Source: Acidobacteriota bacterium (GTDB taxonomy: Bacteria; Acidobacteriota; Terriglobia; 20CM-2-55-15). Taken from it: a stretch of 64,000 nucleotides of DNA. The stretch is taken from NCBI GenBank assembly GCA_022821145.1, contig JAJEEE010000009.1:62001-126000 (forward strand). The letters run 5' to 3'. Positions within the stretch are counted from its first letter, which is position 1; the number at the start of each line of letters is the position of its first letter. Made by a program: the position numbers and the translations under genes. The notes under the pieces were generated by a model. The model was not told the DNA's origin and searched no databases. It saw only the letters and a program-made list of their open reading frames with translations. Of this stretch, positions 8,532-41,134 are shown piece after piece.

Positions 8532-8807
8532 CGCTGTGGCAGGGTCACCGTCGAGCCAGGATACACGAAAGCCAAGGGAACGGCGCGCGCAGGGGGTTTT
8601 CGCAGACCGCCGATGAATCGCGGTCGGGAATGCCGGCTCTCAACCCTCGGTTCGGCGGCGCACGCGGCCCGACGCGGCGACGGCGCGTGCCACGAAGTTC
8701 TTCGCCCGTTCCCGCCGTTACCGGAATTCCCTAGGATCGGCATTTTGCGCCGTGCTAGCATTCGGGCTCGAAAACCCGTCGAACGATCCCTCGAAGGACG
8801 AACTGTC

Positions 8808-9200
8808 ATGGCGTTCACGCTTGTCCTTATCCTTGCGAGCACGGTTGCCGCGCCCATGCACCCCGTTCAGGAAGGGCATCCCATGAGCGGCACATGGGTG
8901 GGCGACTGGGGGCCGGACGCCGAGGAACGCCATCGGGTGGTCGTCGTGATGGAGTGGACCGGGCAGGCACTGGTCGGCACGATCAATCCCGGTCCGGACG
9001 CCATACCGATGAGAGTGGCGACCGTCGACCCGTCCGACTGGAGCGTCCACATCGAGGCGGACGCGACCGACGGCGAGGGCCGTCCCGTCACCTACGTGAT
9101 CGACGGGACCATCGACGACCTGGGAACCTACAACCGAACCATCGCGGGGACGTGGAACGCCGGCGCCACGCCCGGCGATTTCAGCATCACGCGGCAATGA
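8808..9200 (+). CDS. Small exported beta-sheet protein (paralogue of 11662-12072)
   Basis: 130 residues from ATG 8808 with a signal peptide (MAFTLVLILASTVAAP). The mature part opens with HPMSGTWVGDWGPDAEERHRV and continues with alternating short strands (INPGPDAIPMRVATVDPSDWSVHIEAD). It closes with TIAGTWNAGATPGDFSITR, a lipocalin-like or small beta-barrel layout. A near-identical architecture recurs 2.5 kb downstream at 11662-12072, so the module was duplicated together with its neighbours. It begins a run of exported genes on the plus strand and precedes the DUF6152 fusion protein by 19 nt. No function can be assigned. Confidence 0.78.
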   Translation: MAFTLVLILASTVAAPMHPVQEGHPMSGTWVGDWGPDAEERHRVVVVMEWTGQALVGTINPGPDAIPMRVATVDPSDWSVHIEADATDGEGRPVTYVIDGTIDDLGTYNRTIAGTWNAGATPGDFSITRQ

Positions 9201-9219
9201 CGTGCGGGGAGCCGTAATC

Positions 9220-10338
9220 GTGAGGAACGCCGCCTTCGGTCTGTCGGGTGTCGCCGTCCTGCTCCTGGCGGGCGGGCCGGGCTCGGCCCACCACCATCCG
9301 GCGGCCAAGTTCGACCCGGACCGTGCGGTGACGCTCCAGGGCAGCGTGTCGAAGATCGACTGGCTGAACCCGCATGTCCACCTCTTCATGGAAGTCACCG
9401 ACGGGGATGCGACGGTGAGTTGGGCCGTCGAGCTGGAAAGCACCGTCGACCTCCGGCGGAACGGGTGGGGTCCGGACACCGTCGATCTCGGCGATCGAAT
9501 CACGGTGGACGGCATGGCGGCCCGGGACGGAAGCCGCCAGATATGGGCGAACTCGGTAGTTCACGGCGACAGCGGCCGGGACGTCTTCACCGTCGCTCCC
9601 GCCGAACCGCCGGACGCGGCTGAAGCCGCAGCCCCGACGCCGCGCTGGCCGGACGGCCGGCCACGGCTGGGGCCGCCGGCCGGAGAGGCCGGAGGATACT
9701 GGGACTTCCCGAGCCGCTCCACGCTGGTCGAGGACGGGGCGACGGCCCCGGCCGACCGTCACGGCCTTTTGGCCGACATCGACGACGCCGCGGGCGTCGC
9801 GCCATTTCAGCCCTGGGCGCGCGACCTCTACCGATACCGGCAGCAGAATTTCCTGAAGGACGACCCCATGTTCCTGGGCTGCAAGCCCGCCGCCGGGCCG
9901 CGTGTGTTCCAGCGTCCCTACGGCGTGGTCTTCCTCGAGGAGCCGGAACGCGAACGCATTCGCGTCATCATGGGCGGCGGGAATCAGAACTGGCGGTTCA
10001 TCCATCTGGATGGACGCGAACAGACCGGTCTGCCCGAGGGCACCGCGGGCGATCCGCTCTACTTCGGCCACGCGGTCGGCGAGTGGGACGGCGATACGCT
10101 CGTCGTCGATACTCGCGGGTTCCACGACCGTTTCTGGTTTTCGAACGGCGGGCTCCCGCATACGCCGCAGCTTCACCTGGTCGAGCGTTTCACGCGAACG
10201 GATCTGAATACGCTGCGCTACGAGGTGACGATCGACGACCCGGGCGCGTACACGCGGACGTGGACGAGCAGTTGGACGCTTCGATGGGTTTCCGGAGAAG
10301 AGCTTCCGGTGTACTACTGTCAGGACAACAGACCATAG
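9220..10338 (+). CDS. Exported DUF6152 domain fused to a large conserved acidobacterial-type domain
   Basis: About 372 residues. The GTG at 9220 is preferred over the GTG at 9202 because GGGGAG lies 8 nt before it and a signal peptide (AAFGLSGVAVLLLAGGPGSA) follows at once. Residues about 25-115 form a DUF6152 domain beginning HHHPAAKFDPD and containing WLNPHVHLFMEV and RNGWGPDT. Residues about 145-370 match the separate protein encoded at 10805-11665: VAPFQPWARDLYRYRQ, a CKPA motif, YFGHAVGEWDGDTLVVDT, and a terminal ..CQDN. The gene is thus a fusion of two domains that also occur here as the neighbouring single-domain genes, implying that the two products work together in the periplasm. Biochemical role unknown. 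Confidence 0.8.
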   Translation: MRNAAFGLSGVAVLLLAGGPGSAHHHPAAKFDPDRAVTLQGSVSKIDWLNPHVHLFMEVTDGDATVSWAVELESTVDLRRNGWGPDTVDLGDRITVDGMAARDGSRQIWANSVVHGDSGRDVFTVAPAEPPDAAEAAAPTPRWPDGRPRLGPPAGEAGGYWDFPSRSTLVEDGATAPADRHGLLADIDDAAGVAPFQPWARDLYRYRQQNFLKDDPMFLGCKPAAGPRVFQRPYGVVFLEEPERERIRVIMGGGNQNWRFIHLDGREQTGLPEGTAGDPLYFGHAVGEWDGDTLVVDTRGFHDRFWFSNGGLPHTPQLHLVERFTRTDLNTLRYEVTIDDPGAYTRTWTSSWTLRWVSGEELPVYYCQDNRP

Positions 10339-10349
10339 GAGGATCCGCG

Positions 10350-10754
10350 ATGAGATCCCTCGTATCGAGAATCTGCGCGGTGGCCGTGGGCGTGCTGGTG
10401 GCGTCGGCCCCGGCCATCGCCCACCATTCGTTCGCGGCGGAGTTCGACGCCGACCAGCCGGTCACGCTGAGAGGCCGGGTCACGCGAATCGCGTGGAGCA
10501 ACCCTCACGTCTGGATCTACATGAACGTCGAGGACGAGACCGGCCAGCTCGTGAACTGGGGCTTCGAGATGGGCGCGCCGCACCAGGTGAGAAACCGGGG
10601 ATGGGACCGCGACACGTTGAAGGCCGGAGACGAGGTCATCGTCGAAGGGTCCCGGGCGCGCGACGGCAGCTTCCGCATGAACGCCAGAAGCGTGACGTGG
10701 GCCGAGACCGGCCTGAGTCTGGGAGCCGCATCCAGCCAGGGAATCACGCCCTAG
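10350..10754 (+). CDS. Exported DUF6152 family protein
   Basis: 134 residues from ATG 10350, preceded by AGGAGG 7 nt upstream. The signal peptide (residues 1-24, ending SAPAIA) is followed by HHSFAAEFDADQPVTLRGRVTRIAWSNPHV-type sequence, the hallmark opening of DUF6152. The conserved His-His immediately after cleavage, RNRGWDRDTLKAGDEV and SRARDGSFRMNA complete the domain. It resembles an OB-like beta-barrel with an N-terminal His pair that could bind metal; that is an inference. It lies between its fusion paralogue (12 nt upstream) and the 10805 gene, which encodes the other half of that fusion. Confidence 0.83.
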   Translation: MRSLVSRICAVAVGVLVASAPAIAHHSFAAEFDADQPVTLRGRVTRIAWSNPHVWIYMNVEDETGQLVNWGFEMGAPHQVRNRGWDRDTLKAGDEVIVEGSRARDGSFRMNARSVTWAETGLSLGAASSQGITP

Positions 10755-10804
10755 CGGAACAGGTTCGCCCGCCTGACGGGACGGCGGGCCTTGGAGGTAT
10801 ATCG

Positions 10805-11665
10805 ATGCGACGACACCGCTTGACCGTAAGCCTGACAGCGGCGCTGGCGCTGCTGTCTCCCGTGCTCTCCGAAACGCTGCAGGCACAGGATGCAGACACG
10901 CCCCGCCCCGCCCCGCGCCTGCCGAACGGCGAAGTGAGCTTCGGCCCGCCGCCGGGAGAGAAAGGCGTGTGGAACCGCGGCGACTACCGGTCCATGACGC
11001 CGGAGCGGCCGGAGGAGATCGCGCTCCGCGACGCCCGTGGCGGGCCGGACTTCAGTACGCACCCGTTGAAGCCCCGCGTCAGCGAAGTCCCGTTCCAGCC
11101 CTGGGCGAGGGAACTGTGGCTCTACCGCCAGACCCACGAGATCGAGCCGTACACGCGGTGCAAGCCGGCGGGCGGGTTTCGGAACATGGCCACGCCCTAT
11201 GGAACGGAGATCATCCAGGTGCCCGAACAGCAGCGACTCTACATCTTCCAGACGGGCGGACCGCACAGCTTCAGGCCCATCTACATGGACGGGCGTCCGC
11301 ACCCGGAAGATCTGGACCCCAGCTACTACGGCCACTCCGTCGGCCACTGGGAAGGCGATACGCTGGTGATCGACACGGTCGGTTTCAACGAACGCGGCTG
11401 GCTCGACGCGCGGGGCATACCCACGACGAAACAGCTTCGTCTGACCGAGCGGCTCACGCGCCTGGACATGAACACCCTGCGTTACGAGATGGCCGTCGAT
11501 GACCCCGGGGCCTATACCGCGCCGTGGACGACCGGCATGGACATGCGGTGGACGCCGGACAGGGAACAGTTCGAGTACATCTGCCAGGACGGCAACCTGG
11601 CGTCGGAGCTCATGATCGGCGGCGGCAACGCGCTGATCGACCGCGCGAGCCCGATCGTTCCATGA
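10805..11665 (+). CDS. Exported conserved protein (same family as C-terminus of 9220 gene and 18281 gene)
   Basis: 286 residues from ATG 10805, with GGAGG 9 nt upstream. The signal peptide (HRLTVSLTAALALLSPVL...LQAQ) precedes a proline-rich linker. The core contains VPFQPWARELWLYRQ, RCKPAGGFR, YYGHSVGHWEGDTLVIDT, LRLTERLTRLDMNTLRYEM and a C-terminal YICQDGN. These blocks recur in the 9220 and 18281 proteins. The family is abundant in Acidobacteriota secretomes and unassigned functionally. Conserved Cys (CKPAGG and ICQD) could form a disulfide. The stop overlaps the start of the next gene (ATGA), so translation is coupled. Confidence 0.8.
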   Translation: MRRHRLTVSLTAALALLSPVLSETLQAQDADTPRPAPRLPNGEVSFGPPPGEKGVWNRGDYRSMTPERPEEIALRDARGGPDFSTHPLKPRVSEVPFQPWARELWLYRQTHEIEPYTRCKPAGGFRNMATPYGTEIIQVPEQQRLYIFQTGGPHSFRPIYMDGRPHPEDLDPSYYGHSVGHWEGDTLVIDTVGFNERGWLDARGIPTTKQLRLTERLTRLDMNTLRYEMAVDDPGAYTAPWTTGMDMRWTPDREQFEYICQDGNLASELMIGGGNALIDRASPIVP

Positions 11666-12072
11666 TGGAGAGGCTCGGGACGGGCGCAGGGGTCGGGCTC
11701 CTGGTTTGGGCTCTGGCGGCGCCGGCCGCCGTGGCCCAGGAAGGCCACCCGCTCGTGGGCATCTGGTCCGGCGACTGGGGCCCGACGCCGGACGAGCGCC
11801 ATCCGGTCCTGATCGACATGTCCTGGGAAACGACCACGCTCAGCGGGATCATCAATCCCGGATTTCCCGATGCGGCGACGATCCGCGTCGGAACGCTCGA
11901 CTCCTCGGACTGGACCGTGCACCTCGAGGCGGACGGCGTGGACGGCGACGGCAACCCCGTTCGGATCGTCATCGACGGCGCGCTCGACGACCTCGGCTCG
12001 CCCAACCGCACCTTGAGCGGCACCTGGACGCGGGACGGCACGCAAGGCGACTTCGCGCTGACGCGGGAATAG
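11662..12072 (+). CDS. Small exported beta-sheet protein (paralogue of 8808-9200)
   Basis: 136 residues from ATG 11662 (a second ATG follows directly at 11665). The signal peptide (GAGVGLLVWALAAPAAVAQ) leads into EGHPLVGIWSGDWGPTPDERHPV, which aligns over its whole length with the 8808 protein: IINPGFPDAATIRVGTLDSSDWTVHLEAD and a closing TLSGTWTRDGTQGDFALTR. The gene overlaps the preceding stop by 4 nt. Its copy at 8808 lies before the fusion gene, so the two small genes bracket the DUF6152 and large-domain genes. Function unknown. Confidence 0.78.
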   Translation: MMERLGTGAGVGLLVWALAAPAAVAQEGHPLVGIWSGDWGPTPDERHPVLIDMSWETTTLSGIINPGFPDAATIRVGTLDSSDWTVHLEADGVDGDGNPVRIVIDGALDDLGSPNRTLSGTWTRDGTQGDFALTRE

Positions 12073-12097
12073 CGTCGCGAGCAACGGAGGGACGACC

Positions 12098-13102
12098 ATG
12101 AAACTGTCATTCGGCGCCGCACTGTTGCCGCTCATCCTGGTCGCGTGCGCGGCGCCGGACGCACCGGAAGCCGCCGGGGACGCCGTGCCGCACGTGGGCC
12201 CGGTGGAAGGCTTCCAGCCGGCCGAGAACTTCGACCCCGACGACGTGGCCTCGATCCGTGAAAGCCGCGACCGCTGGGTGAGAGCGTTCGCCGAGGGCGA
12301 CGCCGAGCCGCTGGCGTTCATCTTCCAGCAGGAAGCCGTCATGGCATGGCCGGAGGGGCTGCCGGCAGTGACGGGCGACGAGCTGTTCGCCGCGTACACG
12401 GCGGAACTCGCCTTCGACGTGCCGTCGGAGCAGTACATCACCGACGGCGGCGACCCCCGGACCATGACCCGGTTGCCGTGGGTGTCCTACTACGCCGATT
12501 ACACGTTGACGCTGACGCCCAGGGACGGCGGCGATCCCATGGCGAGCTCGGGGCGATTCATGACGCGGTTCCATCGACAACCCGACGGCTCCCTCGAAGT
12601 GATTCACGGCCCCGCGGTGGGAGACCCCGCTCCGCGGTTCGCCTTGAACGAGATGAGGGGCGGGGAGGAGACCGCGCTGGCCGACCTGCTCGGCGAGAAG
12701 CCGGTGGTGCTGGTCTTCGGGAGCTACACCTGAGGGCCCTTCATGAACAGTGTCGTGGACACTGAAGACTGGTACCAGGCTTCCAGGGATCGCGCCAACT
12801 TCCTGATGGTCTACATCGAGGAGGCCCATCCGGGCAACACGGTCGCGGGCATGGAGGTCCATGCCGCGACGACCATCGAGGAGAAACAGGCATTGGCGGA
12901 ACTCTGCACGAGCGGCAACCTGAGCCTGCCGACCGTTCTCGACAAGCTCGACAACGCGGTCGAGATCGCCTACGCGGCCTTCCCGGACCGCATTTACGTA
13001 CTCGACGCCGACGGCGTCATCCGGTACAAGACCACGCCCGGTCCCTTCGGCTGGGACGTGGCCGAATCGGCCGCCGCGCTGGAACGACTGCTGGCCGAAT
13101 AG
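12098..13102 (+). CDS. Deiodinase-like selenoprotein (lipoprotein, SnoaL-like + iodothyronine-deiodinase-type thioredoxin fold), in-frame TGA read as Sec212
   Basis: 334 residues if the TGA at 12731-12733 is read as selenocysteine; conventional calling would split it in two. The N-terminus is a lipoprotein signal with lipobox LVAC (Cys17). Residues about 55-185 resemble a SnoaL/DUF4440-like domain (SRDRWVRAFAEGDAEP, SGRFMTRFHRQPDGSLEVIHG). The C-terminal part is a T4-deiodinase-type thioredoxin fold: VLVFGSYT-U-GPFM matches the family's FGSxTU active site. Coding similarity continues past the TGA in the same frame with FLMVYIEEAHPG and DKLDNAVEIAYAAFPDRIYVLD, both family blocks. A hairpin follows at SECIS distance (12748-12764). 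selD lies elsewhere in the window. The protein is probably an envelope-anchored redox enzyme; iodothyronine is unlikely to be the natural substrate. Confidence 0.85.
12748..12764 (+). promoter_or_regulatory. Candidate bacterial SECIS hairpin
   Basis: CAGTGTC-GTG-GACACTG forms a perfect 7-bp stem with a three-base loop. It starts 15 nt after the TGA codon, and its loop begins 22 nt after it, inside the range known for bacterial SECIS elements. It lies within the coding sequence, as bacterial SECIS elements must. The GU in the loop fits the usual preference, but I do not see the bulged U of the E. coli fdhF element. An alternative pairing of the flanking CTTCA with TGAAG would lengthen the helix. 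Confidence 0.55.
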
Positions 13103-13114
13103 AACCGCGTGACG

Positions 13115-14428
13115 ATGAACCGCCGTGAATGGCTGTGGGGTCTGGCCGGACTCGGCGCCGCGGCATGCGTCCCCGACACCGGCGACGCGCCGGCCGACGG
13201 ACCGGTCCCGCTCGAGGGCATCGGCCGGGGGATCCGCCACGTCTCCTACAGCGACGTCGGCGGCAACCCGGACTGCGTCCAGGTGATGTCCAACCGCGGC
13301 CATCTGTACGTCGGCCACATGTTCGCCGACGGGCTGACGATCCTGGACGCCGCCGACCCGCGCGCCCTGCGTCCCGTGGGGTTCTTCACGGCCGGGGGAA
13401 ACACGCGAACGCATCATCTGCAAGTGGCCGACGACCTGCTCCTGCTGGCGAACGGCGCGAACATCGTCGCCATGCAGTCCTACGACGACCTGCGCGGCTA
13501 TTTCGAGAACACGCTGGCCGACAGCGTCACCGGCGAAGGCGTATTCCGGTCCGGCCTCAGCATCCACGACATATCCCGGCCGGACGAGGCGCGCGAGATC
13601 GCGTTCCTGGAAATGCCCGGCCTCGGCGTCAACCGCCTGTGGTGGACGGGCGGCCGGTACGCCTACGTCGCCGCGCACTTCGACGGCTTCACCGACACGA
13701 TTCTCGCCGTCGTCGACCTCAACGACGTCACGAGGCCCGAAATCGTCTCGCGCTGGTGGCTGCCGGGGATGAACCGCGAGGCGGGCGAGACGCCGGTCGC
13801 CACCGAGGGGCGCCGGGTGGCCCTGCATCACATGATCACGTCCGGCGACTACGGATACGCCGCATGGCGCGACGGCGGCCTGACGATCCACGACATCGGC
13901 GACCCCGGCGCGCCCGCGTTGCTGTCCCACATCAACTGGTCCCCGCCGTTTCCGGGCGGCACGCACACCGCGCTGCCGCTGCCCGGGCGCGACCTGGTCG
14001 TGGTGGCCGACGAGGCGAACGCGGAACGCTGCGAGAAGGGGATCTTCCACACGTTCGTCGTCGACGCGCGCGTCAAGGAAAACCCGGTCCCGATCGCGAC
14101 GCTGCCCACGCCCCGCGACCGCGACTACTGCGGCCTGGGCACGTTCGGACCGCACAACCTGCACGAAAACCGGCCGGGCGCCTTCGTCAGCGAGGAAACG
14201 ATCTTCGCGACGTACAACAACGCGGGCGTGCGCGTGTTCGACATCCGCGACGCGTTCGCGCCCACGGAAATCGCCTACTGGGCGCCGCCCGTCCCCGCAC
14301 GGATGGTCGATCCCCGTCCGATGGTCGCCCACGCGGCCAAGACGTGCGACGTCCTCGTCCGGACGGACGGCCTGATGTATGTCACAGACTGGAACGGCGG
14401 ACTTCACGTCCTGGAATACGAGGGATAA
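13115..14428 (+). CDS. LVIVD-repeat beta-propeller, exported (Tat-like or lipoprotein)
   Basis: About 437 residues. ATG 13115 is preferred over the GTG at 13109 because it opens a signal sequence directly: MNRREWLWGLAGLGAAAC, with a twin-arginine start and a Cys at 18 that could be lipidated. The body repeats LVIVD-like blades such as LYVGHMFADGLTILDAADPRAL, LSIHDISRPDEAREIAFLEM, LTIHDIGDPGAPALLSHI and VRVFDIRDAFAPTEIAYW. Conserved His residues (TRTHHLQV, ALHHMITSG, GPHNLHEN) are typical of family members resembling selenium-binding-protein or copper-linked propellers; whether metal binds here is an inference. It starts 12 nt after the selenoprotein gene and precedes the sugar dehydrogenase, suggesting one transcript. 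Confidence 0.8.
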   Translation: MNRREWLWGLAGLGAAACVPDTGDAPADGPVPLEGIGRGIRHVSYSDVGGNPDCVQVMSNRGHLYVGHMFADGLTILDAADPRALRPVGFFTAGGNTRTHHLQVADDLLLLANGANIVAMQSYDDLRGYFENTLADSVTGEGVFRSGLSIHDISRPDEAREIAFLEMPGLGVNRLWWTGGRYAYVAAHFDGFTDTILAVVDLNDVTRPEIVSRWWLPGMNREAGETPVATEGRRVALHHMITSGDYGYAAWRDGGLTIHDIGDPGAPALLSHINWSPPFPGGTHTALPLPGRDLVVVADEANAERCEKGIFHTFVVDARVKENPVPIATLPTPRDRDYCGLGTFGPHNLHENRPGAFVSEETIFATYNNAGVRVFDIRDAFAPTEIAYWAPPVPARMVDPRPMVAHAAKTCDVLVRTDGLMYVTDWNGGLHVLEYEG

Positions 14429-14433
14429 CGACA

Positions 14434-15948
14434 ATGCGCACCGTATCCGCCTGGCCGGTATGGCTCGGCCTGCTGGCGCCGGGGGCGACCTGGGCCCAGG
14501 TCGCCAATCCGATCGACGATCCGATCGTCCATCGCGGGCTCGAGGTCCGCATCGAAACACTGGCGCGCCTGCCCGAAACCGGCAGCCTGCACGCTGACGA
14601 CCGGGACCCGGCGACGTGGGCGCGGGTGAGCTTCGTCCGCGACCGCGCCGACGGACGGCGTTTCGCGAACGACTCGCGCGGCTTTCTCTACGAGCTCCAC
14701 GCCGGCGGCGAACCCACGTTGTACGCCGACGTCGACGCGGCGTTCCCGCACGCGATCTACGACAGCCTGGCCAGCGGGTTCATCGGTTTCGACTTCCACC
14801 CGGAATTCGCCGCGAACGGCCTGTTCTACACCGTGCACGGCGAGCGCGCGGCGGGGAACCCCGCCGTGGCCGACTTCGTTCCGCCCGGCTTCGGTTCATC
14901 CGACGTGACGTACCACAGCGTGATCACCGAATGGCGGGCAACGGATCCGGCCGCGGACGCCTTCGATGGTTCGCGGCGCGAGTTGCTCCGCATCGGCCAT
15001 ATCGTCGATCTCTTCCGGCACCCCTTCGGCTACGTCGGCTTCAATCCGACCGCGGAGCCGGGAGATCCCGATTACGGGTTGCTGTACGCCAGCGGCAGCG
15101 ATCTGGGATTCTCCAACGGCGGCGGCCCCCACGAAGCCGACCCCGCCCAGATGCAGCGGCTGGACACGGTGGTGGGCGCCATCCTGCGCATCGATCCCCG
15201 GTCACCGTCGGAATCGGGCGGCGTGGAAGGGATCGGCGACTATACCGTCCCGGCCGTCAACATGTACGCCGATGACGGCGACCCCGAGACACTGGGCGAA
15301 ATCTACGCCTCGGGCTTCCGGAACGCGCACCGGCTGTCGTGGGACCTCGACGACGGCACGTTGTTCGCCGCCGACATCGGCATGAGCCACATCGAGGAAA
15401 TCAATATCGTCCACGAGGGCGGCAACTACGGCTGGATGCAGCGCGAGGGCTACTTCGACAACGGCGTCTCCCGGCGCGGCGGGGTCCTCGGCGACGTCTT
15501 TCTCCTGCCGTCGGAGGTCCTGAACGGACGCTACCCCGACGGGTTCGCCTATCCCGTGGCCATGTACGACCACGACGACGGCGAGGCCGTCGCGGCGGGG
15601 TTCACCTACCACGGCGCCATCCCGGCCCTTCAGGGCAAGTTCATCTTCGGCGACGTCGCTCGCGGCCGTCTGTTCGCCGCCGACACGGCGGCGATGAAGG
15701 CGGCCGACGACGGCGTTCCGGAGACCGTCGCCGCGATCGAGGAGATCCAGCTTTATGCCCGCGACGCGGACGGGAATCGCCGGGACGTGACGATGGGAGA
15801 CCTCGTGGCCGAGGCTCTCGGCCGCGACATCGAGCGGGTCGACCTGCACTTGAGCCGCAGCGCCGACGGCGAGATCTTCATCACGTCGCGCCACGACGGC
15901 TATATCCGGATGCTCGTCCCGGATCGCCCGGCGGACGGTGCGCGTTAA
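14434..15948 (+). CDS. PQQ-type glucose/sorbosone dehydrogenase family protein
   Basis: 504 residues from ATG 14434, 5 nt after the preceding stop. The signal peptide (MRTVSAWPVWLGLLAPGATWA) is followed by a six-bladed soluble-quinoprotein propeller. Visible marks are FIGFDFHPEFAANGLFYTVH (the classic GSDH blade), RIDP after LDTVVGAILRI, IYASGFRNAHRLSWD (the catalytic-site region of soluble glucose dehydrogenase-like proteins), ADIGMSHIEEINIVHEGGNYGWM and GKFIFGDVARGRLF. Members oxidise sugars or aldoses in the periplasm or are structural relatives without PQQ. It is co-oriented with the LVIVD propeller and the selenoprotein. Substrate undetermined. Confidence 0.85.
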   Translation: MRTVSAWPVWLGLLAPGATWAQVANPIDDPIVHRGLEVRIETLARLPETGSLHADDRDPATWARVSFVRDRADGRRFANDSRGFLYELHAGGEPTLYADVDAAFPHAIYDSLASGFIGFDFHPEFAANGLFYTVHGERAAGNPAVADFVPPGFGSSDVTYHSVITEWRATDPAADAFDGSRRELLRIGHIVDLFRHPFGYVGFNPTAEPGDPDYGLLYASGSDLGFSNGGGPHEADPAQMQRLDTVVGAILRIDPRSPSESGGVEGIGDYTVPAVNMYADDGDPETLGEIYASGFRNAHRLSWDLDDGTLFAADIGMSHIEEINIVHEGGNYGWMQREGYFDNGVSRRGGVLGDVFLLPSEVLNGRYPDGFAYPVAMYDHDDGEAVAAGFTYHGAIPALQGKFIFGDVARGRLFAADTAAMKAADDGVPETVAAIEEIQLYARDADGNRRDVTMGDLVAEALGRDIERVDLHLSRSADGEIFITSRHDGYIRMLVPDRPADGAR

Positions 15949-16013
15949 CCCGATCTCGGAATAACCGGTCTCCGGCGGCTGTTCGCCGCCCGGATCGCGG
16001 CCGGATTCGCCGG

Positions 16014-16019
16014 TATAAT
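16014..16019 (+). promoter_or_regulatory. Candidate -10 box (TATAAT) for a leaderless transcript
   Basis: A perfect TATAAT lies only 6 nt before the GTG at 16026, so transcription would start about at the initiation codon. I see no good -35 hexamer at 16-18 bp. A leaderless mRNA is therefore suggested by the sequence but not shown. Confidence 0.45.
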
Positions 16020-16025
16020 TCACGG

Positions 16026-16289
16026 GTGACGTCCAACAGCTTGAAGTCGCCCGATCGGACCGCGGATGAGCTGGCCGCGGTCGAGCGTTGGGTGCGCACG
16101 TGGAAGAAGGCGGGGCCGAGGCTGGAAGCCATCCGGCGGGCCGAGCTTCGCCGCCTGGATCCGATTCAGGCGATCACCTGTCTCTGCCGCCCGGCCGACT
16201 ACACGGTCCCGCCCCGGGCGCCCCGTCCGACATCGGGTCTCGTCGAACAGCAACGGTGGTTCAGGAAGGCCTTCGGACACCGTGACTGA
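16026..16289 (+). CDS. Small hypothetical protein, probable partner (antitoxin-like) of the decayed nucleotidyltransferase
   Basis: 87 residues from GTG 16026: a helical, basic protein (ELAAVERWVRTWKKAGPRLEAIRRAELRRL). Its stop overlaps the GTG of the following nucleotidyltransferase remnant by several bases, as in toxin-antitoxin pairs. Comparable short proteins are encoded directly before AbiEii-type nucleotidyltransferases in other bacteria; I recall this from the family and could not check it. No promoter apart from the TATAAT immediately before the start is seen. The frame is intact although its partner is broken. Confidence 0.6.
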   Translation: MTSNSLKSPDRTADELAAVERWVRTWKKAGPRLEAIRRAELRRLDPIQAITCLCRPADYTVPPRAPRPTSGLVEQQRWFRKAFGHRD

Positions 16290-16380
16290 GCTGATCCGAA
16301 CGGCTTCCGACCTCCAGGCATTCTTCGAGTCCCGCTAGTGGAGCTACTGCTTCATCGGCGGGTTGGCCGTCGAGCGATAA
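16282..16380 (+). pseudogene. Remnant of an AbiEii/DUF1814-like nucleotidyltransferase toxin
   Basis: Starting at the GTG at 16282, the frame reads TELIRTASDLQAFFESR, then TAG (16336-16338), then WSYCFIGGLAVER, then TAA (16378-16380). FESR-x-WSYCFIGGLA followed by an RWG segment is the typical N-terminus of these nucleotidyltransferases, up to the GG of the first catalytic motif. Everything after that point is missing or scrambled before the next gene at 16443. The toxin is therefore dead: one nonsense codon plus a large deletion. The intact upstream 87-residue gene is a possible orphan antitoxin. Confidence 0.65.
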
Positions 16381-16442
16381 TCGGCAGGCAGGGTCGTCCG
16401 GGTGCGGCCTCAGGCGCTCGGCCGCGAGAGGCGCGGATCGGA

Positions 16443-16907
16443 GTGAACGAATCGCCGGGAAAGAGGTTCAAGAAGTCAACGCGGACCGCCCGCCACGGCG
16501 ACGCGACGCCGGTCCTCCTCGCAGGCGGCAACCCTCAGATCGCCAAGGCCGATGGTGACATCCCCGTCCAGGCCTACATCGCGGCCATGCCCGGTTGGAA
16601 AAGCGCGGCCGGGCGCCGCCTCGACGACCTCATCGTGCGCACCGTGCCCCACGTGCGCAAGGCCGTGAGGTGGAACTCGCCCTGGTATGGCGTCGAGGGC
16701 CATGGTTGGTTCTTGAGCTTCCACGTATTCACGCGCTACATAAAGGTGACCTTCCTGAACGGTGCGTCGCTGCGCCCCGCCCCACCCGGCTCCGGCAAGG
16801 ACAAGGACTCGCGCTGGATCGACATCTACGAGGCCGAACTCGACGAGGATCGGATGGAAGCCTGGATCCGGCAATCGGCCGCCCTGCCCGGTTGGCGCGG
16901 ATTCTGA
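16443..16907 (+). CDS. DUF1801 family protein
   Basis: 154 residues from GTG 16443. The core reads VQAYIAAMPGWKSAAGRRLDDLIVRTVPHVRKAVRWNSPWYG, the recognisable DUF1801 pattern, in which a helix is followed by the conserved WNSPWYG. FTRYIKVTFLNGASLRP and a C-terminal IRQSAALPGW follow. The fold is frataxin-like (YdhG/YjbR relatives), and members are cytosolic with poorly defined roles. The first 25 residues are low-complexity and basic, so a later start is possible. It is not obviously linked to the pseudogene before it. Confidence 0.8.
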   Translation: MNESPGKRFKKSTRTARHGDATPVLLAGGNPQIAKADGDIPVQAYIAAMPGWKSAAGRRLDDLIVRTVPHVRKAVRWNSPWYGVEGHGWFLSFHVFTRYIKVTFLNGASLRPAPPGSGKDKDSRWIDIYEAELDEDRMEAWIRQSAALPGWRGF

Positions 16908-17052
16908 GGACCTGCCGACCCCGATTCGCATCGTTCGCGAAACCGGAGCGGCGGAGGACTCCCGTTGCCGGAGCCGAAGGGGCCCGACAAGGCTCTGGTC
17001 GATGGCCGGGGAAACACGCATCGCGTTGCCGGTCCGGAGCATGACGCCACCT

Positions 17053-17601
17053 TCAACGGAAGTGAATCCAGAACATCAACCCGCCGGTCGACGACGTCTC
17101 CTCGCGCAGCAGAACCTGGTACGCCCGGTCCTCGACCTGATGGATCCCGAGCAGGTACAGCCGGGTCGAGCGCGGACCGCCCTGGTCCACCTCGTCGAGC
17201 GCACTATCCGCCAGACGCTCCGCTTCCGGCTCGGACTCGGGATCGAGCAGGACGTGCACCATGTCGACCGCGTCGGCGGCCGTGTCGATGGTCAACGTCA
17301 GCGACTGGACGGCCGAGGCGGACGGGTCCGTCGGAAGGAACTCATCGATGGTGACATCTCCCGCCGGCCGGCCGATCAGAAAGGAAAACTCGCCCGCGTC
17401 GCCGGCCAGCGCCGCGTGCAACTCCTCGCGGGACGCCGAGTCGTGAAGAAACCCGATCGCTCGATCCATGTAGAACCGCTCCCGGAGCAGTGCGTACACG
17501 GCGTCGGGCAGGGCGGACGTCGGCGCCTGGCGCTCGGCTCCCTGGGCGGATAGTGAAGCCAAGCAGAAGAACAACGCTGCCGGTCGCCGAAGCCGATTCA
17601 T
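17053..17601 (-). CDS. Exported protein of unknown function
   Basis: 182 residues from ATG 17601 (a TTG at 17604 precedes it). A short signal peptide (MNRLRRPAALFFCLASLSAQGA) is followed by a mixed helical/strand domain: LPDAVYALLRERFYMDRAIGFLHDSASREEL, GEFSFLIGRPAGDVTIDEFLP and VHVLLDPESEPEAERL. The end is rich in strands (STRLYLLGIHQVEDRAYQVLLREE). No motif is recognised. It is a single gene transcribed towards the DUF1801 gene, with which it converges. Confidence 0.6.
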   Translation of the reverse strand: MNRLRRPAALFFCLASLSAQGAERQAPTSALPDAVYALLRERFYMDRAIGFLHDSASREELHAALAGDAGEFSFLIGRPAGDVTIDEFLPTDPSASAVQSLTLTIDTAADAVDMVHVLLDPESEPEAERLADSALDEVDQGGPRSTRLYLLGIHQVEDRAYQVLLREETSSTGGLMFWIHFR

Positions 17602-17681
17602 CAACTCGGGCGGAGTGTAACGCAGTTGGGGTGACGGACGCAGGGAATTACCGGGCGCACGCGGCGCGACGCCGAGATCCG

Positions 17682-18284
17682 TCAGGCCGCGCCTTCGCCG
17701 CCGAGCCGGCCGGCGCTCCAGCGTTGGATGACGACGAACAGGGCGACGACGGCCGCGGCGAGGGCCAGTCCTACGCCGACGTTCTCCCTGAAGAGGTCCA
17801 TTGTCCGGTCCCCGTATCGCAGCGCGACGAACGCTTCCCCGAAGTAGCGAACGATACGGCCGAACGCGACCGCGCCGACGAAGGAGAGGGGCCTCATCTG
17901 AAACACCCCGGCGCCGATCACGAACAGCTTCGTCGGAAGCGGCAGGGGGATCATCGTCGGAAGGATCAGCACCAGCCCGCCGTACCGGTCGATCTGGCGG
18001 CGGATCTTCGCGGCGCCCGCGCCGGACGCCCTCTTGCGCAACATCAGCTCACCGCCGCGCCGCGCCATGGAATAGAGAACGTACGAACCGATCAGGGAGC
18101 CGGCCACGGCAAGGGCCGCGGCCGGATACGCCGTGGACGGCGCGGCGATCGCCTGCGTAATCAGGAGAAAATCGACGCCCTGCGGCAGGGGGACGAACGC
18201 GGAATCGCCCAGCGCCACCAGGAAGAGGCCCCAGGGCCCGAGTGTCGTCACGCTTTGTGTCAGCCAGTTCGCGACGCTGCTCAC
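17682..18284 (-). CDS. VTT/DedA-family membrane protein
   Basis: 200 residues from GTG 18284, which overlaps the upstream stop (GTGA). The domain order matches SNARE-associated/VTT proteins: an N-terminal re-entrant segment with DSAFVPLPQGVDFLLI, transmembrane helices near 40-65 and 135-150, and the conserved PTMIPLPLPTKLFVIGAGVFQM block with prolines and a basic residue. The C-terminal helix is near 170-190. Family members act in lipid scrambling or undecaprenyl-phosphate recycling at the inner membrane; the specific substrate here is not evident. It is slightly shorter than typical DedA proteins (about 200-220). Confidence 0.83.
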   Translation of the reverse strand: MSSVANWLTQSVTTLGPWGLFLVALGDSAFVPLPQGVDFLLITQAIAAPSTAYPAAALAVAGSLIGSYVLYSMARRGGELMLRKRASGAGAAKIRRQIDRYGGLVLILPTMIPLPLPTKLFVIGAGVFQMRPLSFVGAVAFGRIVRYFGEAFVALRYGDRTMDLFRENVGVGLALAAAVVALFVVIQRWSAGRLGGEGAA

Positions 18285-19255
18285 CTGCCCGCGGCGGCTT
18301 GCCGGTCCCTCTCGCGGGCGCCGGCCAACGCTCCGGCCATGCCGTAGTTGCCCTCGTGGCAGGCGTACTCGTAGACGAGGCCGTCGATTCGCGTCAGCGG
18401 CACCTCGGCCGTCCACGGCCGCTCATAGGTGTCCGGATCGTCGACGGTGAACTGGTAGATCAGCGTGTCCTCGTCCTGCCGCGTGAAGCGCTCGGTCAAC
18501 TTCATGTTCGGGCTCGTCCCGCGCCATGCCGCCTTGTCGGAGAAATTCGCCGTCTCGACGACGAGAGTGTCTCCTTCCCATCGGCCGCGCGAGTCGCCCT
18601 TCCAGAGCCGGACGCTGTCGTCGAGATGCGGCCGGTCATCCAACGGGATGATCCGTGTCTCGTGCCCCATCTCGATCAGCAACGCGACGTGGCCGGGGCT
18701 CTGGACGATCTGCGTATTGTTGTTGTAGGCCGTGGGCGTGATCGGCGGCCCCGAACCCTGCATCACGAGGCAGCGTTCCGGCAACGGGCGGTTCTCCGGT
18801 CCGTCGAACTCACGTCCGATATTGGCTTCGCGCCTCGCCTCGTTGCGCGCACGGCCCTCTTCGGTCATCGCGGGAATCCGCCCGTCGGCCGGGTCGATCA
18901 CCAGCGAGGTCCGCAGCGTCTTGACGACCCGCGTGCCCGGATCCCACCAGAAGTCGTTGTACGCGCGGCTCACGTCGGCCGCGGCCGGGCCGTCGCGGCG
19001 ATCCTTGTTCGTCCGCTCGCGATACGCGATCTCGTACTCGCGTGCTTCCTCGGGCGTGAAGAACTCCTTGTCGGCGAGCTCTCGCGGCCGTTCCAGCGGC
19101 GTGATCGTGGCGAAGGACCAGACACCCTGCAGGTCCGGCTGGCCGTCGGGCGTCCGGAGCGTCGTCGATTGCCCGGCCGCGCCTCCCGCCATGAGAACCA
19201 CCCCGGCGGCCGTAGCCCCCCAACCCCGCGTCCACGCATGCAGTCGATCCCTCAT
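18281..19255 (-). CDS. Exported conserved protein (family of 10805 and the C-terminus of 9220)
   Basis: 324 residues from ATG 19255, with GGGAGG 8 nt upstream. After the signal peptide (GWGATAAGVVLMAGGAAGQ) it has LRTPDGQPDLQGVWSFATITPLERP, a family opening. DDRPHLDDSVRLWKGDSRGRWEGDTLVVET, LTERFTRQDEDTLIYQFTVDDPDTY and a C-terminal YEYACHEGN follow. The RWEGDTLVVET, LTERF and DDP..Y blocks match the 9220 and 10805 proteins; the sequence is otherwise diverged. It overlaps the VTT gene by 4 nt. Function unknown. Confidence 0.78.
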   Translation of the reverse strand: MRDRLHAWTRGWGATAAGVVLMAGGAAGQSTTLRTPDGQPDLQGVWSFATITPLERPRELADKEFFTPEEAREYEIAYRERTNKDRRDGPAAADVSRAYNDFWWDPGTRVVKTLRTSLVIDPADGRIPAMTEEGRARNEARREANIGREFDGPENRPLPERCLVMQGSGPPITPTAYNNNTQIVQSPGHVALLIEMGHETRIIPLDDRPHLDDSVRLWKGDSRGRWEGDTLVVETANFSDKAAWRGTSPNMKLTERFTRQDEDTLIYQFTVDDPDTYERPWTAEVPLTRIDGLVYEYACHEGNYGMAGALAGARERDRQAAAGR

Positions 19256-19331
19256 CGAAAAACCTCCCAACAACCTCGGCGAATCCCTCGCCCGAATTCA
19301 GGTCTGCGCCACCCGGATTTCAAGGGTCGGG

Positions 19332-19709
19332 TCACTCCTCGGCGCCGGGACGAAACGGCCGACCGTTCGCGGCCAGCCGTGCTTCGAGCTTGTCCGTGCA
19401 GTCGCAGCGGCCGCAGGCCCAGGGCTCGGCGCCGCTCAGATCGCGGCAGCGGCTCCGGGCGTGGGCGTCCTGCACCTTCAGCAAGTCGAAATACTCGTCC
19501 CAATATGGGCGCTCTTCCTCCAGCGGCGTCGGGCAATAGCATACTTCAACCCACTGCACCCGGCCGTCGGCCAATTCGCGCGCCTGGTCCATGTTGCGCA
19601 GGTATTCTCCGCCGGCGACCGAGCCGCGTCCCAGCGTTCCCCGCGCGATCGCCGTCGCCAGCGCGGCGGGCCGGCCGCGCTTGACCTTGGCTGTCACCAG
19701 GTATCGCAC
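19332..19709 (-). CDS. Conserved cysteine-rich small protein of unknown function
   Basis: 125 residues from GTG 19709 (MRYLVTAKVKRGRPAALATAI). After a possible ferredoxin-like alpha/beta start come GTLGRGSVAGGEYLRNMDQAREL, RVQWVEVCYCPTPLEEERPYWDEYFDLLKVQDAH and a C-terminal cysteine cluster (CRDLSG..WACGRCDCTDKLEARL). Six cysteines in the second half suggest metal binding, perhaps zinc or an Fe-S site; that is inferred from spacing only. No signal peptide is seen. I have a memory of similar proteins in cyanobacteria and other phyla but cannot name a family. Confidence 0.68.
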   Translation of the reverse strand: MRYLVTAKVKRGRPAALATAIARGTLGRGSVAGGEYLRNMDQARELADGRVQWVEVCYCPTPLEEERPYWDEYFDLLKVQDAHARSRCRDLSGAEPWACGRCDCTDKLEARLAANGRPFRPGAEE

Positions 19710-19750
19710 GCGCGTTGCCCGGCTATTCGATCCGCGTCGCCCGCATCCCG

Positions 19751-20716
19751 CTATCTCAGGAAATCGCTCCAGCCGTTGCCCGACATGTACGGCATGGAGA
19801 ACCCCATCGCCTCGATTTCGTGAATGCGGTAGTCCCGGATCTTGTAGACGTGCGCCGCCGGTAAATCGAACGGGTCGAATTCCATCGTCCGTGTCGATCG
19901 GGCCCCGTCCGGGCCGACGATCGTGAACTCGTTGGTCTCGAACCCGTGCCGGAACTGCGACAGGCCGAACACGAGACCCGTGACGGGATCGGCGATCCAC
20001 ACGCGGCGCAGATCGATGTCGTCGATGTAGGTGAACGTCCGCGTGTTCATCTGGTCGAAGCAGCCGGCCCGCGGTTGGCCGCCGCGTCCCAGGCCGCTGC
20101 CGCCGGCGGTGATCATCCCGTTCTCGCGCCGCTCGCAATCGTCGGCGAACAGCGTCGCGCTTCCGTCGCTCTGCTCGATCGAGTCGTAGTACGACGCGCC
20201 GATGATGAGCATGAGCTCACGGGGTATCCGGTCGCCGGGCGGCAACTCCGACACCAGCCCGGGGCGCGGCGTCTCGACGTTCCCGAGCGCGTTCTGGCCG
20301 ACGTTGGCCACCATGTGCTCGGCCTCGACGATCCGGCCGTCGTCGACCTTCAATCGAAGCGCCAGCATGCCGGCGCCGTCACCGGTTTCGACGACGCCCA
20401 TGAAACCCACCTGTCGAGCCACCGGATCCGGAACGTAGATGCGGAAGGCGGCCGAGACGGAGACCGCGTTCTCCCAGAGACCTTCGCCGATACTGAGCAG
20501 CTCGGTGTTCTCGGTGTACCGAACCCGCTCGGAGAGCGGGGCCGCCGCCGGGTCGTTCTCGGCCATGGCTTCCAGGTACGCGTCCACGATGCCCCGCAGA
20601 CACTCGCGGTCACACGGACCGGGATCGTCCCAGAGGCGGGCCTGCGCCGCCACCGGGACGGCCGTCGCGGCGCCGATCAGGCAGGCCGCGGCCGCGTACG
20701 CAGACAGTCCTCTCAT
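19751..20716 (-). CDS. Exported hypothetical protein
   Basis: 321 residues from ATG 20716, with GGAGG 8 nt upstream. The signal peptide (LSAYAAAACLIGAATAVPVAAQA) is followed by PCDRECLRGIVDAYLEAMAENDPAAAPLSERVRYTENTELL, resembling the opening of NTF2/SnoaL-type domains. A second half includes DDCERRENGMITAGG, CFDQMNTRTFTYIDDIDLRRVWIAD and a final WSDFLR. Internal cysteine pairs suggest disulfides in the periplasm. Actual function cannot be assigned. Confidence 0.7.
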   Translation of the reverse strand: MRGLSAYAAAACLIGAATAVPVAAQARLWDDPGPCDRECLRGIVDAYLEAMAENDPAAAPLSERVRYTENTELLSIGEGLWENAVSVSAAFRIYVPDPVARQVGFMGVVETGDGAGMLALRLKVDDGRIVEAEHMVANVGQNALGNVETPRPGLVSELPPGDRIPRELMLIIGASYYDSIEQSDGSATLFADDCERRENGMITAGGSGLGRGGQPRAGCFDQMNTRTFTYIDDIDLRRVWIADPVTGLVFGLSQFRHGFETNEFTIVGPDGARSTRTMEFDPFDLPAAHVYKIRDYRIHEIEAMGFSMPYMSGNGWSDFLR

Positions 20717-20750
20717 CGCACGAACCTCCAGGAGCCAGCGTGCCGCTCGA

Positions 20751-21380
20751 TCAGTCGGCCGAAAAGCAGTAGTACATGCCGGCGCCCCCGGTCGGCGTCA
20801 GGTTCTCCATCGCGCAGCCCTGGGACGGATGAACGGCATTCCAGGAGTTGACGCCGGGGTTCCGGCCGATTCGGTCGGCGTGGCCCAGCATCGCCGTGCT
20901 GTCGGCGGAACCGTCGGTCCAGTCGTTGCACGTCATGTCCGACGCGGTGCCGTCTTCGTTCGTGCCGGTCAGGACGTCGTGCTCGAGCGGCTGCGGCCCA
21001 CCGATGTAGTTGGGCGATTCGTTCCGCTCGTTCAGCGCGGTCTCGGCCGTCAGGTTGTTCTCGCCGTGCAGATTGTCGACATCCGACGCGATCATGACGC
21101 CCGCGGCGTTGTACCAGGGTCCGCCGCCGATGCGGTCCCGCGCATCGACGGCGCTCGTGCTCAGATACGCGCGCCAGGTCTTGCCGCCCTGCCCGACGGC
21201 CTCCGCCAAAGCTTCACAATGGGCGTCGGCGCCGTCGAGACCGCCGAGGTTCCCGCCGGTTCCCGGATTGCTGCTGGTCACGAAGAAACTCATGTTGTCC
21301 GCCTGTCCGCGTACGAACGCCGGAAAGGCGCCCAGAGCCACGACGGCGGCTGCGGTCACAAGAAATCTGCTCCGAATCAT
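20751..21380 (-). CDS. Exported lectin-like / collagen-endostatin-fold protein (DUF1554-like)
   Basis: 209 residues from ATG 21380 (GGAGACGAGC precedes it). After a signal peptide (SRFLVTAAAVVALGAFPAFVRGQ) come MSFFVTSSNPGTGGNLGGLDGADAHCEALA, GKTWRAYLSTSAVDARDRIGGGPWYNAAG and DMTCNDWTDGSADSTAMLGHADR. The pattern of 'GADAHC...', 'WRAYLST', 'RI..GPWYN' and 'NDWT' followed by a terminal YYCFSAD fits the C-type-lectin/endostatin-like family found in secreted bacterial proteins. Three to four cysteines would form disulfides. Ligand unknown. Confidence 0.75.
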   Translation of the reverse strand: MIRSRFLVTAAAVVALGAFPAFVRGQADNMSFFVTSSNPGTGGNLGGLDGADAHCEALAEAVGQGGKTWRAYLSTSAVDARDRIGGGPWYNAAGVMIASDVDNLHGENNLTAETALNERNESPNYIGGPQPLEHDVLTGTNEDGTASDMTCNDWTDGSADSTAMLGHADRIGRNPGVNSWNAVHPSQGCAMENLTPTGGAGMYYCFSAD

Positions 21381-21508
21381 GCTCGTCTCCTCTTCGAGTC
21401 GCCTGCGATGCCGCTGTCGGAGCGGCATGGGACACCCATGGTACACCGCCGCCCGCCGCAACCGAACGGATTCTCCCCCGGCTCCGTGCGGCGCCGGCGA
21501 AGGAAGAC

Positions 21509-21547
21509 CCCCGCCGCCGTTCCCGTCAGGGGTGGCCGGCGGCGGGG
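21509..21547. repeat. Inverted repeat (11-bp arms) between divergent genes
   Basis: CCCCGCCGCCG (21509-21519) and CGGCGGCGGGG (21537-21547) pair perfectly around a 17-base loop. It sits in the 216-bp gap between the divergently transcribed 20751 and 21597 genes. A short TTT follows on the plus strand, which is weak for a terminator. It could be an mRNA leader structure or chance in GC-rich DNA. Confidence 0.4.
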
Positions 21548-21596
21548 TTTCCGTGAAATACTGTCGCACCCGTACTTGCATTCGACAGGAGGAACG

Positions 21597-22253
21597 ATGA
21601 CATCAACGGCGCCGAACGGACGGACCCAGTTCCCGGCCCCCGCTTTCGTCGGGCTGTCCCTGGCCGTCGGTCTGACGCTCGCGGGCTTGGGTGCGCCCGT
21701 TGCGGGTGCGCAGACAACGGATGAGCGCGTCGCCGACTTGCGGGCGCGGTTCGCTGGAGGCGACGACGTCACCATCAATATCTTCAGGTGGTCCACCGAC
21801 GAGGAACGCGATGAACTGATTGCCGGTATGGACCCCGCCGCCCGAGCCGAGGCCGCGGCGCAAGCCGAGGCCGGCGGCGGCGGGCGCGGCGGACGGGGCG
21901 GACGCGGCGGTGGCGACGATCCGCCCGAGGATCCACTGGTGGTGGCGATCGATGCGCTGCCGACGCTGGGATACATCTGGACGCAAAGCGTTTCCGGGTT
22001 CGCGATCAAGTACGCGGCTCTCGACGACGCACCGGGCGGCGGGGAACGCATCGTCCTGGTCACGAGGCGCCGCCTGGAGCCGCGAACACCGTCCGACGAC
22101 GAGTTCACCCTCATCGAGGTCCGGCTCGGCAACGACGGGACGGGAATAGCGAAGGCCGCGCCGCTCGAAGACGCCGGGCTCGACCGTCCGCCGATCGCCC
22201 TTGCCGACTACGACGCGCTCCCGGGCGTGCTCGAGGGCGTTCGGCGCGAGTAG
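21597..22253 (+). CDS. Exported protein with Gly/Arg-rich linker, unknown function
   Basis: 218 residues from ATG 21597 with ACAGGAGG 5 nt upstream. The signal peptide (FVGLSLAVGLTLAGLGAPVAGA) leads to a helical part (VADLRARFAGGDDVTINIFRWSTDEERDELI). A glycine-arginine tract (GGGGRGGRGGRGGGDD) follows, then a strand-rich domain with SVSGFAIKYAALDDAPGGGERIVLVTRRRLEP. The repetitive tract is a flexible linker. It is transcribed alone, divergently from the lectin-like gene and convergent with the DUF6644 genes. Homologues seem confined to Acidobacteriota from memory; unchecked. Confidence 0.65.
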   Translation: MTSTAPNGRTQFPAPAFVGLSLAVGLTLAGLGAPVAGAQTTDERVADLRARFAGGDDVTINIFRWSTDEERDELIAGMDPAARAEAAAQAEAGGGGRGGRGGRGGGDDPPEDPLVVAIDALPTLGYIWTQSVSGFAIKYAALDDAPGGGERIVLVTRRRLEPRTPSDDEFTLIEVRLGNDGTGIAKAAPLEDAGLDRPPIALADYDALPGVLEGVRRE

Positions 22254-38476: not shown

Positions 38477-39505
38477 TCAGAGAATCTCGATCGAGGCCGG
38501 GCCCGGGGGCCGAACCTCGCCGATCTCCGATGCAGGCACCCCCGCCTCGGCCAGCGCTTTCCGCAGGTGCCCCGCGCAGTCGTCGCCGGCGAACACGAGT
38601 AATCCGCCCGACGTCTGCGGGTCGAAGACGAGGTCCTTGTAGTCGGGGGTCACCGGGTTCTTCCACTCCACTTCGGGCCCGAAGAACTCGCGATTGCTAT
38701 GGAGTCCTCCCGCGCAATGGCCCGCCGCGCTCGCGGCGAGCGCGCCGTCCAGAACCGGGAGCCGCGCGTGATCGATCGCTATCGTCACGCGGCTCGCCCG
38801 CGCCACCTCGACGGCGTGCCCGACGAGACCGAAGCCGGTCACGTCCGTCATCGCCCTTACGGGGAAACTCACGATCGTCTCGGCAGCCACGCGGTTGGTG
38901 GCCGTCATGCCGCGCACGGCGGCATCCAGATGGGCCGTCGCCACCTGCCCCTTCTTCAACGCCGTCGTGATCAGCCCCGCCCCCAACGGCTTGGTCAGCA
39001 GGACCCTGTCGCCAACGGCGGCGTGGCTGTTGTCCAGAACCCGGTCCGGATCGATGGTCCCGGTGACCGCATACCCGAACTTCACCTCTTCGTCCCGCAA
39101 GGAATGGCCGCCCATCAGCGCGACACCACACTCATCGAGCTTCGCGAGACCGCCGTCCATGATCTGTCTCAAGACGCCGGGCTCGATTCCCTGCGTGGGA
39201 AAACCGACGATCGACAAGGCCGTGATGGGCCGGCCGCCCATCGCATAAATGTCGCTCAGCGCGTTCGCCGCGGCCACTTGCCCGAACAGCGTGGGATCGT
39301 CAACCATCGGCGGGAAGAAGTCCACGGTCTGGACCAGCGCCAAGTCGTCGGAAAGCCGGTACACGCCGGCGTCGTCGGACCGGTCGAAGCCCACCAGGAT
39401 CTCCGGCATGGTCTGTCGACGGATGCCGTTCAGCGCGGCGCTGAGATCCTTGGGGCTGAGCTTGCCGGCGCATCCGGCCGACTTGGCGAAGCGGGTCAGC
39501 CGCAT
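38477..39505 (-). CDS. selD: Selenophosphate synthetase (selenide, water dikinase), Cys form
   Basis: 342 residues from ATG 39505, overlapping the parB stop by one base (TGATG). It makes monoselenophosphate from selenide and ATP, the selenium donor for tRNA-Sec and 2-selenouridine. The catalytic pair is SAGCAGKL with Cys12 and Lys15; a Sec is common at this position in other bacteria. Further marks are TVDFFPPMVDDP (metal site), GGHS and FDPQTSGGLL. It supports the selenoprotein candidate at 12098. It sits oddly between parB and the F1 operon. selA, selB and tRNA-Sec are not in this window. Confidence 0.95.
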   Translation of the reverse strand: MRLTRFAKSAGCAGKLSPKDLSAALNGIRRQTMPEILVGFDRSDDAGVYRLSDDLALVQTVDFFPPMVDDPTLFGQVAAANALSDIYAMGGRPITALSIVGFPTQGIEPGVLRQIMDGGLAKLDECGVALMGGHSLRDEEVKFGYAVTGTIDPDRVLDNSHAAVGDRVLLTKPLGAGLITTALKKGQVATAHLDAAVRGMTATNRVAAETIVSFPVRAMTDVTGFGLVGHAVEVARASRVTIAIDHARLPVLDGALAASAAGHCAGGLHSNREFFGPEVEWKNPVTPDYKDLVFDPQTSGGLLVFAGDDCAGHLRKALAEAGVPASEIGEVRPPGPASIEIL

Positions 39506-40362: not shown

Positions 40363-41113
40363 GAATCACCTCCTTGGCCAACCGGATATAGCTCTCGGCC
40401 CCCTTGGACCGGATGTCGTAGAGCAGAATCGGCTTGCCATGGCTCGGCGCCTCGCCGAGCCGAATGTTCCGTGGAATCTTCGTGTCGAACATCCGCGGGC
40501 CGAAAAACGACTGGAGGTCGGCGTGAACCTGCCTCGCCAGGTTGGTCCGCTCGTCGAACATCGTGATCAAGACGCCCTCGATTTCCAGCTCCGGATTGCA
40601 TTGACGCCGGATCTGCCGGACCGTCTCGATCAGCTCCGAAACCCCTTCCAGCGCGAAGTACTCACACGGGATCGGTATGAGGACGCTGTCGGCCGCCACG
40701 AGCGCGTTGACCGTCAACAGGTCCAGGGCCGGCGGGCAGTCGATGAGAATGAAGTCGAACTCGACGGCGACCGGCTCGAGCAACTCGGCGAGCCGGCGTT
40801 CCCGGCCCTCCATCTGGCCCAGCTCCATCGTCACGCCGACCAACTCCCGGCCTGCCGGCGCCAACAGCAGCGAGTCCATTTCCGTGGGCAACAGAATCGA
40901 GGACAACGGCTCGCCGAAAACGAGCGCGTGGTATGTCGACCGGTCGTAACTGTTCTTCCGGACTCCGAGGCCCGACGTGGCATTCCCCTGGGGATCCGCG
41001 TCGACGACCAGCGTTCGCATCTCGGCCGCGGCCAGCGACGCCGCCAGGTTGATGGCGGTCGTCGTCTTACCGACTCCGCCCTTCTGGTTCGAAACTGCGA
41101 TCACTCGCGCCAT
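40280..41113 (-). CDS. parA: Chromosome partitioning ATPase ParA (Soj)
   Basis: 277 residues from ATG 41113. It has the deviant Walker A KGGVGKTTTAINLA, DADPQGNATSGLG, DFILIDCPPALDLLTVNAL and the PIPCEYFALEGVSELIET block. It moves ParB-parS complexes. The C-terminal 27 residues are encoded over the first part of parB (83-nt overlap), longer than usual. The start lies about 20 nt after the parS site. Confidence 0.97.
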   Translation of the reverse strand: MARVIAVSNQKGGVGKTTTAINLAASLAAAEMRTLVVDADPQGNATSGLGVRKNSYDRSTYHALVFGEPLSSILLPTEMDSLLLAPAGRELVGVTMELGQMEGRERRLAELLEPVAVEFDFILIDCPPALDLLTVNALVAADSVLIPIPCEYFALEGVSELIETVRQIRRQCNPELEIEGVLITMFDERTNLARQVHADLQSFFGPRMFDTKIPRNIRLGEAPSHGKPILLYDIRSKGAESYIRLAKEVIHARTEESVGPGPERVARDTRSRTGSSA

Positions 41114-41134
41114 GCTCGTGGCCCTGGGTCTGGG

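Follow-up and report, generated by a model that had tools for sequence, protein, structure and literature searches.

A gene in the 64,000-nucleotide stretch of DNA analyzed here (the window) very probably encodes an exported lipoprotein of the deiodinase family that contains selenocysteine (Sec). Decoding of its in-frame TGA (12731) as Sec is very strongly supported by comparison with homologues. As the preliminary description had claimed, the reading frame runs from ATG 12098 through a single in-frame TGA (12731-12733) to TAG 13100-13102, and the residues around the TGA read FGSYT-U-GPFM. The TGA is codon 212, and the product is 334 amino acids long if the TGA is Sec; annotation without TGA recoding would cut the gene (12098-13102) in two. 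The Shine-Dalgarno sequence upstream of ATG 12098 is good. The lipobox reported earlier was also present, as LVAC ending at Cys17 in the window protein and as LSGC in the same-genus homologue; Cys17, the last residue of LVAC, is the predicted lipidation site, and both export and lipid anchoring of the selenoprotein are likely. The features located in the window are listed in Table 1.

Table 1. Features of the selenoprotein gene, and selD, with positions in the window.
Feature	Position	Strand	Basis or remark
Shine-Dalgarno-like GGAGGG	12086..12091	+	6 nt upstream of ATG; read from the sequence
Selenoprotein gene	12098..13102	+	334 codons including Sec, TAG stop; orthologue of the same length in L024/L025
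Predicted signal peptide with lipobox LVAC	12098..12148	+	Sequence; LSGC in the orthologue
DUF4440 (NTF2/SnoaL-like) domain, residues 53-163	12254..12586	+	Pfam PF14534, E = 2e-5
Iodothyronine deiodinase/thioredoxin-fold domain, residues 173-331	12614..13090	+	PF00837, E = 4.2e-24; Dio3 4tr3, E = 1.4e-16
56-nt stretch without differences from the orthologue (88% identical)	12722..12777	+	Covers the TGA and the hairpin
TGA as selenocysteine, residue 212	12731..12733	+	Homologue comparison, aligned column
bSECIS hairpin, stem CAGTGTC/GACACTG, loop GTG	12748..12764	+	Fits the bSECIS model; unchanged in the orthologue; rare codons
Relay residues Tyr239, Glu242, His244 (Dio3 Tyr197, Glu200, His202)	12812..12829	+	Alignment
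Cys270, candidate partner of Sec212	12905..12907	+	Cys in 52/67 Sec-type rows
selD (selenide, water dikinase)	38588..39502	-	TIGR00476, 360 bits; confirmed with NCBIfam

Conservation of the TGA was assessed in homologues at increasing distance. In a same-genus relative the protein was 88% identical and the TGA was at the same codon. Because 28 of the 34 codons that had changed 3' of the TGA between these orthologues were synonymous (6 were not), selection at the protein level acts downstream of the TGA. Eighteen consecutive codons spanning the TGA and the hairpin were unchanged; the P value of so long a run at the TGA was 0.006. In the class sample, 132 of 399 genomes had homologues and 115 had a homologue with an in-frame TGA, one of which (G078) showed other stops too; TGA-type homologues also occurred in further classes of the phylum. 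The TGA fell in a single alignment column in every TGA-type homologue aligned, and homologues without a stop had Cys at that column (FGSYTCPNFR, FGSATCPM), so that Sec or Cys was found at the aligned position, as expected from the preliminary description, with the sole exception of a weak homologue (L115) carrying Ser. Relatives were found neither on plasmids nor in viral contigs, and the same-genus orthologue was the only match in the search of genome contigs. That the gene is a pseudogene, or the TGA an error of sequencing or assembly, is hardly credible: the stop codon itself is all that speaks for it, whereas an independent genome carries this TGA and differs downstream of it mainly by synonymous changes, and the TGA is present in over a hundred further genomes.

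The genes for decoding Sec that the preliminary description had proposed to look for (selA, selB, and tRNA-Sec) were all found, together with selD: the genome has tRNA-Sec (75 bits, anticodon TCA), SelA (545 bits), SelB (380 bits), and SelD (360 bits), and selD sits inside the same 64-kb window as the selenoprotein gene. In the class sample, selA was detected in 110 of the 115 TGA genomes versus 180 of the 284 others (P = 7e-13 by Fisher's test, uncorrected for relatedness). Three of the five TGA genomes without a selA match were <80% complete. The other two, G259 (98% complete) and G392 (94%), have a TGA-type homologue, but selA was not matched; possible reasons are a gap in the assembly, a selA that has diverged, or decay of the gene. 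The nine other genomes of the host's family had no homologue at the threshold, though most have selA. On the minus strand, selD adjoins parB- and parA-like genes (39505-40362 and 40280-41233; region 38477-41233), as read from translations only.

The published model of the bacterial SECIS (bSECIS) has a loop of 3 to 9 nt, a stem of 4 to 16 bp, and G in the first two loop positions, with the loop 16 to 37 nt after the UGA (PMC13188914). The hairpin downstream of TGA 12731, with a 7-bp stem and a GTG loop 21 nt after the TGA, agreed with all published constraints. All 50 Sec loci examined, which represent 47 distinct genes, had hairpins fitting the model, and the mean hairpin score was 15.9 at Sec loci versus 8.2 in 18 Cys homologues. 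The sequence of the window hairpin is unrelated to that of the main-clade hairpin (CGGGAGGTTCCCG), and shape and position therefore recur in different letters. Codons within the main-clade hairpin were locked, with CGG for Arg in 40 of 40 cases and GTT for Val in 38 of 40, against 21% of Arg and 15% of Val codons in the rest of the same genes. The stem in the window uses AGT and ACT, which make up only 5% of the Ser and 2% of the Thr codons, respectively, in nearby genes; both fall within the 56-nt segment that the two species share without a difference. Folding energy alone was not significant (z of -0.9 to +0.5 for segments downstream of the TGA and -2.2 for a wider segment), and a scan of the window gave dozens of other TGAs with a similar hairpin, mostly in arginine-rich shadow frames. 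The hairpin alone therefore proves nothing, and since it is not significant by itself, the Sec reading rests on comparative evidence.

SelB with Sec-tRNA would be recruited by the hairpin at 12748-12764 and the TGA read as Sec; without recruitment of SelB, translation would end and leave a truncated product of 211 residues. An in-frame ATG 9 nt past the TGA raises the alternative that two proteins are made, a lipoprotein of 211 amino acids that stops at the TGA and a second protein of 119 amino acids that starts at ATG 12743. This arrangement would split the thioredoxin fold at the catalytic residue and would leave the rare-codon hairpin unexplained; moreover, the TGA is kept at one column across genera and classes and the Cys homologues are single chains. 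We consider two separate proteins highly improbable.

With the TGA read as Sec, the product is a two-domain protein. Membership in the deiodinase family, as proposed earlier, was supported by the Pfam T4_deiodinase domain (PF00837; 85.6 bits, cut-off 27) and by a phmmer match to mouse Dio3 (E = 1.4e-16), and the Pfam match spans the TGA, in line with the claim that homology continues beyond it in the same frame. An AhpC-TSA profile also matched the selenoprotein (E = 5e-7). DUF4440 and SnoaL both belong to the NTF2-like superfamily, and the SnoaL-like fusion of the preliminary description was recovered as DUF4440 at residues 53 to 163, a borderline match barely over the curated cut-off (25.4 versus 25.2 bits). 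Against the PDB, the N-terminal domain had weak matches only, to MonBI-type isomerases (E = 0.03). The architecture had been called unusual, and in the phylum sample the N-terminal part indeed aligned in two same-genus genomes only; DUF4440 was absent from ten further homologues scanned. In one Cys-type homologue (L056), TPR repeats fill the extra N-terminal part. Many Cys-type deiodinase-like proteins (L056, L106, and similar ones) are 480 to 585 amino acids long.

Gene order around the selenoprotein gene was the same in the contig of the orthologue, the neighbors being genes for DUF6152 proteins upstream, an LVIVD-repeat protein (13109-14428), and a GSDH-like protein. The LVIVD-repeat gene starts with GTG 7 nt past the TAG, or with ATG 13115, and has its own lipobox-like signal; it probably forms an operon with the selenoprotein gene. 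By blastn, positions 8720 to 22054 of the window were a mosaic relative to L025, in which stretches of ~99% identity, at about 10450-12070 and 15090-18840, are interspersed with stretches of ~74 to 90%, and the selenoprotein and LVIVD genes (12098-14590) fall in the latter. This mosaic suggests recombination between the lineages of the window and L025.

Active-site residues were compared in an alignment of 91 bacterial sequences with mouse Dio2 and Dio3. Ser167, Thr169, Sec170, Tyr197, Glu200, and His202 of Dio3, which have been proposed to form a relay or loop-anchor network (PMC7506546, PMC11592359), corresponded to S209, T211, Sec212, Y239, E242, and H244 of the window protein. The relay Glu and His were invariant (65/65 Sec-type and 26/26 Cys-type rows), and the relay Tyr was present in 65/65 Sec-type and 25/26 Cys-type rows; the alignment suggests that the Ser/Thr/Tyr/Glu/His network is common to bacteria and animals. 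Further residues of the animal deiodinases, which control thyroid hormone, differed in the window protein. It has Ala257 at the position of Dio3 His219 and Pro314 at that of Arg275 (Lys in Dio2), has neither the proximal Cys168 nor the distal Cys239 of Dio3 in the alignment, and has an omega loop that is ~8 residues shorter and lacks the Trp of AHxxDGW (Trp207) and Asp211. In Dio1/Dio3, His219, Arg275, and the Cys and loop features are important for the binding of thyroxine or for recycling (PMC7506546, PMC9141512), and the alignment suggests that the proximal Cys, the omega-loop Trp and Asp, His219, and the clamp belong to the animal enzymes and are linked to thyroid hormone. Of the earlier designation "deiodinase-like," family membership therefore stands, but deiodination of thyroid hormone is unsupported, as the substrate-binding loop and the clamp residues are missing. 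Judged from the sequence, "deiodinase" is a label of ancestry and not of activity, because the parts specific for thyroid hormone are not conserved.

The same comparison bears on whether the protein is a genuine reductive dehalogenase. Like the animal deiodinases, which act on thyroid hormones, it would then use its selenolate to remove the halogen (iodine or bromine) of small phenolic compounds. It belongs to the same family and all relay residues, including Sec, are identical to those of Dio3; against this stand the Ala and Pro at His219 and Arg275, the missing Cys at 168 and 239, the shortened omega loop without its Trp and Asp, and neighboring genes that indicate neither a substrate nor halogen chemistry. 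We regard dehalogenation as unlikely.

On balance, the protein is probably a membrane-anchored reductase of the selenol/thiol peroxidase type that acts through Sec212 and perhaps Cys270. In the periplasm, the selenolate would be activated by the network of Ser209, Thr211, Tyr239, Glu242, and His244 and may reduce a small oxidized substrate, either a peroxide or an oxidized or halogenated organic compound near DUF4440, with DUF4440 possibly serving as a binding module. Either Cys270 or an external thiol would then resolve the oxidized Sec212. The recycling bond with Sec in human DIO1 is made by the proximal Cys124 (PMC9141512); we propose that in the window protein this role would fall to Cys270 or the external thiol. 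At the Cys270 column, Cys was absent in 15 of 67 Sec-type rows, which include mouse Dio2 and Dio3, both without Cys. A peroxiredoxin-like Sec peroxidase would call for a resolving Cys close enough to the peroxidatic Sec or Cys; an AlphaFold model from two sequences (pLDDT of 34) was too poor for the distance between Sec212 and Cys270.

In the phylogenetic tree, the window protein was an isolated lineage that joined Dio2/Dio3 at a support of 0.71, and this grouping with the animal enzymes is possibly due to long-branch attraction. A reading in which a separate deiodinase branch lies nearer to the animal than to the common bacterial enzymes and the membrane-anchored DUF4440 binds a small aromatic substrate and passes it to the adjacent Sec for reductive dehalogenation or deoxygenation seems to us very unlikely.

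Bacterial deiodinase-like selenoproteins were already known from the Sargasso Sea survey of Zhang and Gladyshev in 2005 (PMC1088965; in PMC13188914). The window protein shares with these PF00837 selenoproteins the Pfam domain, the place of the catalytic Sec, the occurrence of Sec and Cys forms, and a bacterial SECIS after the UGA, but differs from them in being a lipoprotein, in carrying DUF4440 at the N-terminus, and in having a shortened loop. The family is listed with the motif UxxC (PMC13188914), a detail of that listing rather than a curated criterion; the window protein has UGPF, the other Sec-type homologues that we read had UPPF, UPPY, UPSF, or UAPY, and none had UxxC. The C-terminal half matched positions 160 to 341 of the 347 positions of NCBIfam NF038285 (deiodinase_rel; E = 2e-44), but with 152.4 bits against a cut-off of 250 and the N-terminal half unmatched, the protein is a nonmember by NCBI's rule. 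With the vertebrate deiodinases (mouse Dio3, 4tr3; mouse Dio2, 9h48) it shares domain homology and identical relay residues; unlike them it has Cys270 and is without the proximal and distal Cys, His219, Arg275, and the loop Trp and Asp. A deiodinase-like protein with an EF-hand (PMC9402790) is also a bacterial domain fusion, but its partner is the EF-hand and not DUF4440. The window protein is a compact, exported, two-domain version of the family that is amenable to biochemical testing, and what is new relative to these systems is the lipoprotein-DUF4440 fusion, limited to this genus among the genomes searched, together with the isolated lineage and the reduced substrate loop.
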